Below are positions 39,301 to 45,300 of a DNA stretch of 64,000 bases, one piece after another (positions within the stretch are counted from its first letter, which is position 1; each line of letters opens with the position of its first letter). The stretch is from Ianthella basta. Its lineage: Eukaryota; Porifera; Demospongiae; Verongiida; Ianthellidae. The notes under the pieces are model-generated. The model was not told the DNA's origin. It made no database searches and was given only the letters and a program-made list of their open reading frames with translations. The DNA is taken from positions 11,187,455 through 11,251,454 of the forward strand of contig OZ025870.1 of the NCBI GenBank assembly GCA_964019415.1, given 5' to 3'. Made by a program: the position numbers and the translations under genes.

Positions 39301-42300
39301 TGATATACTCTTCCAAGATTGGCGAAGATTGGTGAAAATGGAAGGAGTAGTTCATGCACAACCAAACACGATCTTTTCCCTATCTCTTAGATATGGCGGT
39401 GACCGTAAAAGTGGCAAGAACTCAGTAGGAAAGACCTTAAACCAAATTTCGGCTCGGCGAGGTTACTCACAGCACGCCTCTTCATAATCTTACCAAGTTT
39501 CGTGAAGTTCGGTCCAGAATTGAAGGAGATTATCCCGGACAACAAAAATGTGCGTTACGTTTATTATAATAAGATGAGCGAGTGTATCTCAGGAACGGGA
39601 GTAACTATTGAAGTGTAACAAAGTGCAACAAAGAGCTCATCCACTGTGCTTCCTCCCAGTACCACTAACTCAAAATCGGCAATTAGTATGAATTGGTCCC
39701 TTTTCTCAAATCCGCTCACACATATCCCTGCCAAATAATTGCATTCGGCACTTTCGAGGCTTCATGATGATTCTAAAAGTGCAAGTATTTGAATTCTGCT
39801 ATTCTGATTGGTCACTCACTATTGTCAAACCATTTATCCCATGAGGGTGCCAGGATCTCTAACCTGTTGTATCCCACGAATGCTACAACCTAATTGGTCA
39901 GAATAGCCTAAGTATGGTGTGATGAAGACGAATTGTTTAGGGTAACTGTTTTTGCAGGTCACATTAACATTGTTGCACTGCACAAATGGCTACAAAGAAG
40001 TGTATGTGTGCATGTGTGTGTATGCATGGTTCTGTGGTGCTTTCATTAGAATGACAAGCTGTGTATTAGGTATTGTGTGCTGTGCAGTTGTGCGCATATG
40101 GGTCAAATTGTGTATGAGTCTTCTCATGTTCACTTCAAACATTTGAGTTCAATCAAATGCCTGAGCAGTGTTCACACGTGAGTTCATGAAGCAGGTAGCT
40201 ACAATTAGTTGCAGAGCAGCACCCAAAACAAGCATTTCAAGTTGGGGGCGGCAGCCCCACAAGTTTTTAACACAAAATTCTTGTTCTGGCTTCTGTAATG
40301 TTTGTGTTTGCCCCACCCCTGCACACAATGTCATGCAGGCAGTGCAGGCTATGGAGGTGGAAGTCCAACTACTCAAGGGACTGCGACATGAACGCATAAT
40401 CACATACTTCGGTACAGAGAGAAGTGCGGAAAGATTCTGTATCTTCACAGAGTACATGGCTGGGGTGAGTTATGACATGTGAACATAATTGTGATAGGAT
40501 TTGCAGAAGTGCCTGTGTAGTCGCACTAAACTGGAAACACCACAAGCCAACTTAGTTTGGAGCTGCCTGTTGCCAGCTGATCACGAGGCATCCTTGTTGC
40601 TGGTAGAGTCTTTTCCATTCCATCACCATGGAGGTGAAGTGAAGTTGTCACTCATGCCTTTCCAGAGTGCCTGCTGCTTGTCTCTGCCATATACATACAT
40701 TCACTGCTTTTGCCATATCTGTAGCCCTTGTAAGCATCACTAAAAGCTACTAGTGCCATGTCTATAAACGTGCTCATATCAAGTATCGTTGTAGCTTGAA
40801 CACAAGGACGCAGCAGAGCATGCTGTAGACCAGGTTTGGAGGCTTGTCAGCCTTCTTCCTAGCAGAAATGAATACACTTAACGTCATACATTTCCTTGCT
40901 TTATTTTGTAGATGTTTGATATACTGTCCATGTTGCATTTTCAGCATACTCAACCGTTCACAACCAATGAAACGGTGACCATGAAAGTGTTCAGTCCTTT
41001 GGTGCTGCTCAGCTCAAACAGAGCAGCAGCTATGCGTGCATGCCACAGCTGTGCTTGCTTTGCAGTTTCTGCCACCCATCTAGCCCACACCCACTCCCTT
41101 GCCTTTGTGAGCTGTAGCTGTGCCTATGCGTCAGTCCCTGCTGCCCACCCTCTAGTTGCCTATTCAAACAGTACATGTGCTTGCAAGTGAATGTCCAGTT
41201 CTAATGGAAGTCATGGCCCAGAAGAAAGTTGGGTGAGGAAGGGAAATTGACACCTTTCCCTTCCTCGCCAATCTTTCTTTTAAGATGTGACTTCCATTAT
41301 AATCGTTACATTTAAAATTGACTTGTCTATTGTATGTACAAGTAAATGTTCAATTTGCAGGGCTCTTTGCAACAACGCGTGCAGAAAGTTGGAGCACTGG
41401 ATGAGAAATCTACTGTTAAGTATACCAGACAGATTCTACATGGAGTTGCTTATCTCCACAACTTCAATATACTACACAGAGACATCAAAGGTGTGTGAGC
41501 AAGACCCTGTAAATTTGGAGCAAGTACTACGGTAGGCGCAAATATTATGTTTACATTTCGAAGCGAACTTCGCTGCAAAACTTCGTGCGAACTTCGGGCC
41601 AACTTCGCACAAACTTGGGGCCAACTTCGCACGAACTTCGGGCCAACTTCGCACAAACTTGGGGCCAACTTCGGGCCAACTTCGCACAAACTTCAGGCCA
41701 ACTTCGCACGAACTTTGGGAGAAAACATCGTACGAAGTTTGGAGAACATTGTAAAAGTTAAAGGCAACTTCGTACGAACTTCGACCCTTTGGATAGAAGG
41801 AAAATGGATCAAACTTCGCGAGCTAACTTCATAAGCATGTTAACTTCTGTGAACCTTCTCCATGTTGAACGCCGTGAATACGATTATAGCCACAATGAAT
41901 ATGATTATAAGCTGGCGCGCTGAGGTGCGATATTGTATCCAAGATTATTTTGAGAAGAGAAGAGAAGGAACAAGAAATATGTCAGCTCAGGAAGATGCAG
42001 TTCAAGCAAAAGGTACAAGAAACCTACGTATGTATGCTGTATAATAGTTTATTATAAAGTAGCTGCAAGTACAGTAACTTACAACTGCAGCTACAGTTAT
42101 TAACATGCAGTTGTATAACGAATTACCTTAGGAACTCCCCAGCACATTTTGGTTTACTGGGAAGAAGAAGGCTCAACATCAATTGTCAAGGCTTCTCAGA
42201 TTGTAGAACCACTGCAGCCTGTGAAAGGTTCAAAGTCAAAAGTCAAATGGGGCAAAAGAGTTTTACCTGCCACTGTTTTGGAAGTTGGGGGTAAAGAGAA

Positions 42301-45300
42301 ACTGAAGAAGATGCAAAAAGAGTTCCACAAGAAGAAGGTGTGTAATGATGAAGTGCTTAAAGAAATTACTGAAACTGCACCTCCAGCGAAGAGGAAGTAT
42401 GCAGAGTCGGAGACTACTTCAAGCAAGAAAAAAGGGAAAAAGGAAGCAGCTATTCTTTGTGTTACGAAGCCAGCTGAGCAAGTACCAGAGCCATCACCAC
42501 CCACAACCACACTAGCCATAGACTTAGAAGAGCCCTTTCCTGGCACCCCTTCACCAGAAGTACCTATACAGCACACTCCTCCACCAAATGATGCCCTTGC
42601 TCCAGATCTGCAAAAGATATATGATGAATTGCAGGCACAAAGATACACTTTACAGTCAGTTGAAGATTATGTGCACAAGCAGTTTATGGAACTGCAAGCA
42701 ATGCAATATTTGCAAGCAGCCCAGATTACTGAGCTGCAAGGCAAGCTTGACAAGCTAGAATCACAGCAAGGTTCTACACGAGATGAGTCTGAGGAATGCT
42801 TCCTGTCTCCGGCTGTTGGAATGAACCACAGGGAAGCCTTTCGCGACATCGAAAATTTGCCTCTACAGCTCAACAGCACTCCAGCTTCACGGTGTAATCA
42901 GCCTGCATTGAAATCAGCTGCTGACATAATCGATAGCAATCAGAAGCTGCTCCAGTCCACAGTCAAAGCAGGGCGTCTAGCTGTTCAACTGGCAAGGTAC
43001 AGCTACTTTGGTGAAGAAGTGATGACAATCAGTACAGTCTCAAGTCTGCCAAAAGAAAAACTGAAGGAAATCAAGGCACGACTATATGAAGTCTACCGTT
43101 TTAATAACCAAGTGGAATTTGAACCATTGTGGCAAAAGTGCCTAATTGCTATAGGCAAAGCCTGCCAGGCACTGAGGGTAAAAGATGGCAACTGACGAAC
43201 TTTCCCTAGCATATATGTACAGTATGTACAACATATTATGGATGCTTAAACGTTTCTTTCCTTATGACCCTGTAGAGTGAATGTGTGTACTATACTTGCC
43301 ATTATTGTATGGTTATTTATTTCTTATAGTGACATGATGATGAGCTTCTGTGCATGCTGTTCACATAATATTATATATAGAGAGGGCTAATTGCAATAAA
43401 ATATGTACGTGTGTACAGGGTAGCATCATAAATGTACTCAGTTTGCTCAACCAAAATAATAGTACTATATTAATATCCAGTTGGTCCACCTTCACATTCA
43501 ATTACTTGGGGCAGAACTTTGGCGAGGTGATTGATGTATCTGCAGCACTTTGTGACATCAACTGTTTCCCAAAAACTGACTATTCCTTGGATAAGGTCTT
43601 CTTTTATCATTGGCTTCACTTCCCTTCTCAAATGTTCCTTCAGCTCATGCCATAAATTCTCTATTGGATTGCAATCAGGTGACTCAGGTGGCGTATGCCA
43701 CCAATTGACTCCGTTTTCATGAAAGAACTGCTGTGCAAGTCTTGACGTGTGTTTAGGGTCATTGTCCTGGACAAACCGATGTCCATTTGGATACAGTGAT
43801 TCAATCATTGGTAGCAGGGTTTGCTCCAGGATGTTGACATATGCCACAGCATCCATACAGCCTTCAAATATACAAACTCCAGATCGGCCCTTCTTACTTA
43901 TGGCTGCCCACACGTGAACTTTAGTTGGATGCTTGGGTCTTGGCTTGTATCTTGGTTTAAGGCCAGACTTGGTGCAGCAGAATCGACGGTGGGTCTCCAT
44001 CTGCACCGTTGTCTCATCTGAGAAGATACAATCGGAAAAGTCCTCTCCAATATTCTTTCTTGCCCATGCCAGTCGCTTCTCTTTGTTAGCATCACGGATC
44101 ATTTGACAGTAGGCACTACCACGGTGTGTCCATCCAAGCTGTGTCCGACATGTCAATGCGGTTCTTTCACATACATGATGGCCATGCTCTGATAACATTT
44201 TCTTCAACTCTTTTGCCGTGGTTTCATCATCATCCATCATCTTCTCATCTACTAATCTTCTTACTTCAGCAGTTATCTTTGTCTTTCGCCCTGCACCTTC
44301 TTGTCTACCAATAGTGCCACACTCTTCATATTTCTTCAAAAACTTATGGACACCCTGTCTTGTGGCTGGGAGGTTCTCTTCTGCCAGTAGCTTTGCAATT
44401 TTTGGTGCATTGAACCCATCTTGCCAAAGACTGACAATTCGCTGCTGTTTGTACTCACTGTATGAAGTCATAACACTTGCAATAGATCGATCAACGTTAA
44501 CTCGCCACTTCCAAAGCCACTTAAGCACATAATAACACCTTCGCACCATAGCAACATTGGTGCTAAGCAATCTACCGAACGGAATCGCCCAACTTCGTAT
44601 GAACTACTCCTCAACTTCGTACGAACTTCGCCTCAACTTCGTACAAACTTCGCCCCGACTTCGTACGAAGTTCGCCTCAACTTCGTACGAACTTCGCCCC
44701 AACTTCGTAAGACCTTCGCCCCGACTTCGTACGAACTTCGCATGGAAACGAAAATAAAAATGAAAATAAAAATAATGAATGAAAATGAAATAATAATAAT
44801 GAAAATTAATTAAATAAATTTTAAAAAATTAATTAAATAAAAAAATAATGAAAATAATATTTGCGCCTACCGTATGTGTTCACTGCTATCCATTCCAGGT
44901 ACGAATGTCTTACTGGATTCTGATGATAATATTAAACTGGCCGACTTTGGTGCCTCAAAACAACTGAGTGTGAGTGCATATAGCAGTAGTTCTGCATTGC
45001 TGATACGTGCACTGTGAAATCCCACAAGCAAGACCCCTAGATATCACGCAACCTCTCCTCTCCTCTGATCCCTTAGGCTTCTCACATGACTACCAAATCA
45101 GTGCAGGGCACACCTCACTGGATGGCACCAGAGGTGATTCGAGGGGATCCCTACACGACAAAAGCTGACATCTGGTAATTAAATGCACTTGTAACCCTAC
45201 ACTATTAAAGTTTGTGTGTTCATTCAAACAGGAAATCAATGAAGAATACCTATGAGCCTCTGCAAAATCAATGTGTGTTCATAATAACATGAATAGCATA

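Follow-up and report, generated by a model that had tools for sequence, protein, structure and literature searches.

Tc1/mariner elements are the textbook case of self-sufficient transposons, for whose spread one protein suffices. A second DNA-binding protein used together with subterminal sites is familiar from elements of other superfamilies and in other folds, namely TnpA of CACTA/Spm elements, which counters silencing and keeps the element expressed, and the Myb-type helpers of Harbinger elements. Here we describe a Tc1-like element of 3,343 bp at positions 41530-44872 of a 64,000-nucleotide stretch of the genome of the sponge Ianthella basta (contig OZ025870.1, positions 11,187,455 to 11,251,454; hereafter, the window), which has two convergent genes between its terminal inverted repeats (TIRs), one for a DD34E transposase and the other for a protein with a probable C-terminal BEN domain. 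The element is a member of a diverse, recently active two-gene Tc1-like lineage.

Tc1-like elements such as Sleeping Beauty (IS630-Tc1-mariner) are similar in the DD34E transposase, the TIRs and the TA duplication, whereas the Ianthella basta element adds a conserved BEN gene and long subterminal arrays of sites. The VANC proteins of plant elements are unrelated to BEN, and the resemblance discussed here is one of the manner of working, not of descent. VANC proteins of VANDAL elements are described as binding tandem-repeat noncoding regions of their own elements and removing silent marks (PMC10398659); both cases combine a helper protein with tandem repeats that lie in noncoding parts of the element encoding it, whereas binding and anti-silencing, reported for VANC, are predictions in the present case. 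The TBE and Tec elements of ciliates also combine a DD34E transposase with further open reading frames, the second frame of Tec being described as encoding a site-specific recombinase, but they differ in their ciliate hosts, and BEN does not occur in that description of them (PMC7325037). Mariners with genes for Fanzor1, endonucleases or methyltransferases are recorded as scattered and often viral captures (PMC3627910); they share the Tc1/mariner transposase, the accessory genes and the TA duplications, but in the present lineage it is a predicted chromatin-type DNA-binding protein that is kept throughout. Neither window protein gave a Pfam match to Fanzor/TnpB at E up to 1, and one scan of viral contigs found no relative of the transposase. 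As to the BEN domain, BANP and BEND3 are stated to recognise CGCG sites, methylation of which repels both, and BANP to require oligomerisation for distinguishing methylated from unmethylated CGCG sites (PMC11472053). A BEN domain, in our protein a probable one, and CpG-containing symmetric sites are found in both cases, as is a coiled coil in the case of BANP (PMC11472053), but BANP and BEND3 are host genes, whereas here the gene belongs to a transposon and its product has a Tudor-like N-terminus. In the open-licence literature we found no paper linking BEN to Tc1/mariner elements, and the sequences may be present in Repbase-type libraries; the word BEN is absent from the main text of a survey which covers transcription factors derived from transposons across animals (PMC10027918).

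Pairing of the two genes across the genome

The genome searched consists of 209 Mb in 96 contigs, the window lying on the contig labelled C3, and copies are named below by contig or by stretch (L0xx), the C18 copy being stretch L047 and the C5 copy stretch L048. With the window transposase as a query, the best 121 of 390 candidates were scored; with DDE_3, the best 150 of 221 candidates were scored and 146 listed, and 140 were used after six below the cut-off had been dropped. Transposases were assigned to the lineage by similarity to two query sequences, and BEN genes too far diverged for the queries would escape detection in the lineage and the control group alike.

The Pfam BEN profile (PF10523) gave 46 matches, 35 of them above the curated cut-off. 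Within 3 kb of matches to the window transposase lay 31 of the 35 (29 convergent and 2 divergent) and 39 of all 46 (33 convergent and 6 divergent), and the numbers rose to 32 and 40, respectively, when further transposase matches were added, although the 121 transposase matches with 3-kb margins make up 0.4% of the genome. The counts of transposase and BEN matches are not independent, because one element can give several pieces. Viewed from the transposase, BEN was found within 4 kb of 36 of the 49 matches of at least 280 aa (30 convergent, 5 divergent and 1 on the same strand) and of 64 of all 121 matches, many of which are fragmentary. In the control with DDE_3 matches above the cut-off, BEN lay within 4 kb of 55 of the 94 matches of the lineage and of none of the 46 of other lineages; as these matches are not independent, the p value of a Fisher test on them overstates the contrast. 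With 32 of the 35 above-cut-off BEN domains adjoining transposases, the annotation of BEN genes in this genome is affected as well. The three that lack a transposase within 3 kb (C9:4140185-4140397, C2:8366399 and C2:8542728) are possible host genes or broken elements. Divergent copies are found at C9:7357417-7359565, C2:4878520-4880662, C2:9341414-9343577, C2:7488004-7489836, C3:7019465-7021607 and C14:5195007-5197262.

One copy, C18, is 97% identical to the window element and has TIRs and TA of its own at a site unrelated to that of the window, while in the C5 copy, where both genes are open between TIR variants, the transposase is 84% and the BEN protein 60% identical to those of the window. 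Between the window and C5, simple counting estimates of omega were 0.05 for the BEN domain (bootstrap 0.02-0.12), the synonymous sites of which are near saturation, 0.22 for the whole BEN exon 2 (bootstrap 0.15-0.31) and 0.07 for the transposase (bootstrap 0.04-0.10). The synonymous divergence was comparable in the two genes (0.91 and 1.22), as expected if both diverged together. Between the window and C18, at about 1-2% divergence, the BEN gene had a ratio of 0.67 and the transposase one of 0.80, values to be expected between recent copies. The comparison of coding sequences indicates purifying selection on the BEN gene, acting on its BEN domain as strongly as on the transposase; a helper conserved with its transposase under selection is found here, as in two-component helper systems. 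A one-off capture or chance insertion of the BEN gene is rejected by the genome-wide pairing, the control lineages and this purifying selection.

Among the 20 stretches compared for gene arrangement (L047-L066), the convergent pair is present in L047, L048, L049, L050, L052, L053, L054, L055, L056 and L057, and also in L062, at 48% and 33% identity. Decay is common among the paired stretches, and both genes are open in L047 and L048 only; in L055, for example, TIRs are present, the transposase contains one stop and the BEN gene is partial. L058 has a transposase piece and a convergent BEN piece, with a second BEN domain further along, and L051 carries the two genes in the same orientation. In L059, L060, L061 and L063, BEN pieces occur with no transposase beside them, and in L066 the transposase lacks a BEN partner. 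L064-L065 represent a copy on C1 interrupted by insertions. Nested in L064 (1328-4636) is an element with a terminal 26-bp inverted repeat match, whose TIRs and end sequences differ from those of the window and whose 538-codon open frame (PF10523, E 1.7e-7) is convergent with a transposase frame of 366 codons. Transposases 98-100% identical to that of the nested element number 11 at full length, including itself; four are at 100%, ten have no stop, and all 11 adjoin a PF10523 match, which is above the cut-off in ten and below it in one (C10:7466384). Shorter transposase pieces exist, such as C6:9515500 (207 aa, 94% identity), on a contig without a PF10523 match. The BEN protein of the nested subfamily has a long proline-rich tandem repeat of SYPPGPVHPHTPH-like units (L064 1602-3215), and its 11 sister copies have open frames of 307 to 580 aa, perhaps through changes in repeat number.

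The pairing is not invariable. Both genes are present between TIRs in C18 and C5, and deeper relatives too have BEN adjoining the transposase, the opposite of what the first-pass annotation would have read as a one-off capture or chance insertion, namely copies of the TIR family lacking BEN together with BEN elsewhere as an ordinary single-copy host gene; on the other hand, 13 of the 49 near-full transposases have no BEN match, and 12 short derivatives have lost most of both genes. The latter are 0.97-kb internal-deletion derivatives of the C5 type, 85-100% identical; nine of the 12 match unbroken over the full length and the other three over 838-939 of 971 bases, and further end matches exist. 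Loss of genes is usual in internal-deletion derivatives.

The element and its two proteins

Both ends of the element consist of CGGTAGGCGCAAATATTAT, a 19-bp inverted repeat which sequence comparison found to be without mismatch (41530-41548, plus strand; 44854-44872, minus strand) and which is flanked by TA target-site duplications at 41528-41529 and 44873-44874, so that the perfect TIRs and the duplications of the first-pass annotation are confirmed. The element lies in an intron of a gene for a protein kinase; the exons flanking it join in frame to give a kinase domain. The transposase is encoded on the minus strand in an open frame at 43470-44603, with candidate Met codons at 44549 (gene at 43470-44549) and, as an alternative start, 44471. 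It matched DDE_3 of Pfam (E 1.8e-22), and Sleeping Beauty was the single solved relative found (E 2.3e-24). The D usually counted for the DDE spacing is the first one. Counted from the first D in a DND sequence, the E lies at a distance of 34 residues, and from the second D at one of 32; because of the former spacing the transposase is DD34E, as had been claimed along with its open frame; helix-turn-helix matches are present in the N-terminal part but below the Pfam cut-off. With such a transposase, TIRs and a TA duplication the element is Tc1-like, but in the window element and the other full elements compared the transposase is not the sole gene.

The second gene, on the plus strand, consists of a predicted exon 1 of 11 codons and one base (41979-42012), a predicted GT..AG intron (42013-42131) and exon 2 (42132-43195). 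The first-pass annotation had described a spliced open gene; exon 2 is indeed open (42119-43195), while exon 1 and the intron are a plausible prediction. AATAAA poly(A) signals, both between the two convergent genes, fit in position the transposase gene (43316-43321, minus strand) and the BEN gene (43395-43400, plus strand). Within the intron an inverted repeat, GTAGCTGCA...TGCAGCTAC, was noticed by eye, and the region is kept in the 0.97-kb derivatives L036-L038.

The product of exon 2 is predicted to have a Tudor-like fold at its N-terminus, a coiled-coil-like helix and a C-terminal BEN domain (approximately 42905-43192). In the full-length AlphaFold2 model, the N-terminal domain has five strands modelled with confidence (predicted local distance difference test, pLDDT, 82-89), a long helix spans exon-2 residues 156-211, and the C-terminal half is of low confidence. 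The first four Foldseek matches of this model were all Tudor domains, including those of KDM4A, ARID4B and RBBP1 (probability 1.00, E 0.028-0.099), and no BEN was among the 50 matches listed. The heptad score of the long helix was equalled by 2 of 300 shuffled sequences. Modelled alone with its relatives, the C-terminal stretch of 96 residues formed six helices in the best model, at a pLDDT of 92.6; the other four of the five models had 84.5, 59.1, 52.4 and 47.8, so that the value was good in two only. Among the 50 PDB matches listed for this domain model, the BEN domain of BANP (7yug) had the top TM-score (0.60) and the top probability (0.85), with E 1.6 and the second rank by E, and the BEN domain of BEND6 was also listed.

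Sequence comparison leads from the window protein to relatives which Pfam recognises. The window protein matched that of L058 (E 6.3e-9), and L058 in turn matched the L067 place (E 2.1e-16), for the domain of which PF10523 was the best Pfam match, below the cut-off (E 0.0027). Profile-profile alignment with hhalign against the canonical pair L064/L068 gave E 3.8e-4 over 76 columns, at a probability of just 36. In shuffle tests, z was 13.3 for window and L067, 6.3 for L067 and L064, and 3.9 for window and L064; the N-terminal domain of the L064 protein showed no clear sequence relation to that of the window protein (z 2.3). Related loci of the same lineage reach the gathering score of Pfam BEN, and the L064 protein matched BEND3 in the PDB by sequence. 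The C-terminus of the second protein is most probably a BEN domain, diverged in the window subfamily and recognisable to Pfam in others; the fit proposed by the first-pass annotation is supported by the relatives, the profiles and the domain model, with Pfam BEN itself silent on the window protein. A subtype of BEN is described as DUF4806 (PMC11075544), which had no match in the genome, but a control search was equally silent, so that its absence is not shown.

Subterminal arrays and the possible role of the second protein

Both ends of the window element carry arrays with a period of 11/22 bp. The left one (41563-41822), 5' of the BEN gene, is CpG-rich and has the half-site ACTTCG and sites TTCGNNCGAA; the right one (44588-44741), 5' of the transposase gene, has seven 22-bp units. 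The first-pass annotation had reported 22-bp units with a 16-bp palindrome: the arrays are present at both ends, but the window units contain no perfect 16-bp palindrome, the longest perfect one being of 14 bp and occurring once. TTCGTACGAA occurs five times in the window arrays, and the family-wide site is AACTTCGNNCGAAGTT, with 7-bp arms and a variable 2-bp centre. Spacings of CTTCG half-sites fall at multiples of 11 bp in 10 of 12 cases at the left and 11 of 11 at the right end of the window element, in 5 of 7 and 14 of 16 in C18, and in 9 of 11 and 12 of 13 in C5. When TTCG..CGAA was used as a search pattern for comparing the centres, the arms recurred and the two central bases varied, with TA predominating in the window, CT present in 7 of 7 sites of L055, and TT and TA the most frequent in the L036 derivative. 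Exact AACTTCGNNCGAAGTT is found 44 times in the genome, against once for a reversed control pattern; 36 of the 44 have a BEN or transposase match, in some cases a weak one, within 1.5 kb, and the remaining eight belong to two arrays whose DNA matches the ends of the element, in one case from the TIR start onwards and in the other over the array only. In the window, C18 and C5 elements, the 320-bp ends had observed/expected (o/e) CpG ratios of 1.39-2.65, compared with 0.32-0.38 for the bodies, and in the host DNA of the window (241 bins of 250 bp) the median was 0.52 and the 95th percentile 1.21.

The first-pass annotation had suggested that the BEN protein may bind the arrays and thereby control excision, silencing or target choice. 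In the reading that we favour slightly, this is a two-gene Tc1-like lineage, oligomers of whose BEN protein bind the end arrays and regulate or un-silence the element. The protein, oligomerised through its coiled coil, would bind the symmetric CpG sites of the two arrays; since the left array is 5' of the BEN gene and the right one 5' of the transposase gene, bound protein would touch both promoters and both ends, and could control the promoters as well as the accessibility of the ends. The Tudor-like domain might recruit or read chromatin, and as a net effect the element would stay expressed and its ends open despite DNA methylation or other silencing. Judged by analogy, keeping the element expressed and open would be the likeliest net effect, followed by simple autoregulation. 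Symmetric CpG sites spaced in helical register, a BEN protein predicted to oligomerise and the retention of CpG at the ends would all fit an end-opening factor. A wider version, which we put forward as a tentative and rather doubtful possibility, is that Tc1 transposons encode a methylation-aware anti-silencing factor of Tudor, coiled-coil and BEN parts, which binds unmethylated CpG palindromes at their own ends, holds these ends open, has diversified with its sites into subfamilies, and is a counterpart of VANC and of TnpA of Spm. Transposon-borne BEN genes, which would outnumber host ones in such genomes, may also have fed host BEN regulators.

Several observations count against the reading we favour. 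No BEN was detected within 4 kb of the 13 near-full transposases mentioned above, and fewer spacings keep to the 11-bp register in L055 (3 of 7 and 2 of 3) and the L036 derivative (1 of 3 and 1 of 2, with one strand counted). AACTTCG arrays are absent from the nested L064 subfamily, which does have BEN, so that arrays are not universal; the ends of the nested element have CpG o/e ratios of 1.56 and 1.35 and CGCG-type motifs, and both contain CGCGCGCAC. The CpG richness of the arrays arises partly because the motif itself repeats, and host methylation is suggested by CpG depletion only. The identity of the BEN domain is also touched: PF10523 had no match to the window protein at E<1 and did not reach the gathering score, a phmmer search of the PDB with the window BEN protein returned no BEN chain and nothing at all, a window-type profile gave only chance matches in the PDB and no BEN chain, a narrower window profile (A4) reached E 0.13 against L064 alone, and the shuffle test of window and L068 gave no match (z 1.0). 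A helical DNA-binding domain non-homologous to BEN would account for the silence of Pfam, for the missing match to L068 and for the Foldseek E of only 1.6 for BANP BEN; the chain of significant matches to Pfam-positive relatives, which occupy the same place in sister elements, and the listing of BANP BEN (top by TM-score and probability) and BEND6 BEN among the 50 PDB matches make it quite improbable.

The remaining explanations accept the BEN domain and differ from the favoured end-opening role in what the protein does. The arrays lie 5' of both genes and BEN proteins are often described as repressors (one cited title speaks of neural transcriptional repressors), and both facts would suit a repressor or copy-number brake, which silences its own and the transposase promoter via the arrays and so limits host damage; CpG-rich ends with CpG-poor bodies fit open, protected ends better, although not decisively, and we regard a brake as unlikely. 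Equally, the arrays could be binding sites of the transposase, with the BEN-Tudor protein working elsewhere, for example in steering integration to certain chromatin, for which a Tudor-like fold would be suitable as a tether. The arrays follow closely behind the TIRs, they are retained in the L036 derivative, the 12 copies of which match along both ends within the reach of the alignment, and L064 bears BEN without them. A two-fold symmetric site with a free 2-bp centre, however, suits a dimer, whereas paired-type transposase domains bind asymmetric sites, and seven units per end exceed the usual Tc1 layout of two repeats; this division of labour, too, seems to us improbable, if well worth keeping in mind. 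That the BEN gene is a functionless passenger, a host gene caught once by chance, might be argued from the spread of the 12 derivative copies despite the loss of most of both genes, and from a transposase at C2:7232652 (284 aa, 87%) with no BEN found within 4 kb. Against it, purifying selection on the BEN domain matches that on the transposase in strength, and BEN is present in subfamilies down to approximately 40% transposase identity; the simple form of this explanation is refuted by the genome-wide pairing together with the selection, and the explanation as a whole is hardly credible. A lineage which keeps a second chromatin-type, predicted DNA-binding protein under selection indicates that elements of the Tc1/mariner superfamily can carry a regulator, and the pairing offers a candidate protein-site pair for how elements meet host silencing.

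Other frames in the window

Further frames related to mobile elements lie outside the element. A long open frame of 784 aa at 26376-28730 (minus strand) encodes a hAT transposase (Dimer_Tnp_hAT, E 3.4e-7), and a frame at 35868-36530 (minus strand) a PIF/Harbinger-type transposase (DDE_Tnp_4, E 1.4e-38). By eye, the frame at 6543-7316 (plus strand) is Myb/SANT-like, with no Pfam match, and the frame overlapping it at 7253-7849 (minus strand) is transposase-like, with only a match to DUF6289 below the cut-off; the two are possibly a second two-gene element, of the Harbinger type. Reverse transcriptase frames are found on the plus strand at 2121-2690, below the Pfam cut-off, and at 51363-52337, the former being followed by a frame of recombinase-like appearance (3028-3834); by eye, the DIRS type is suggested.

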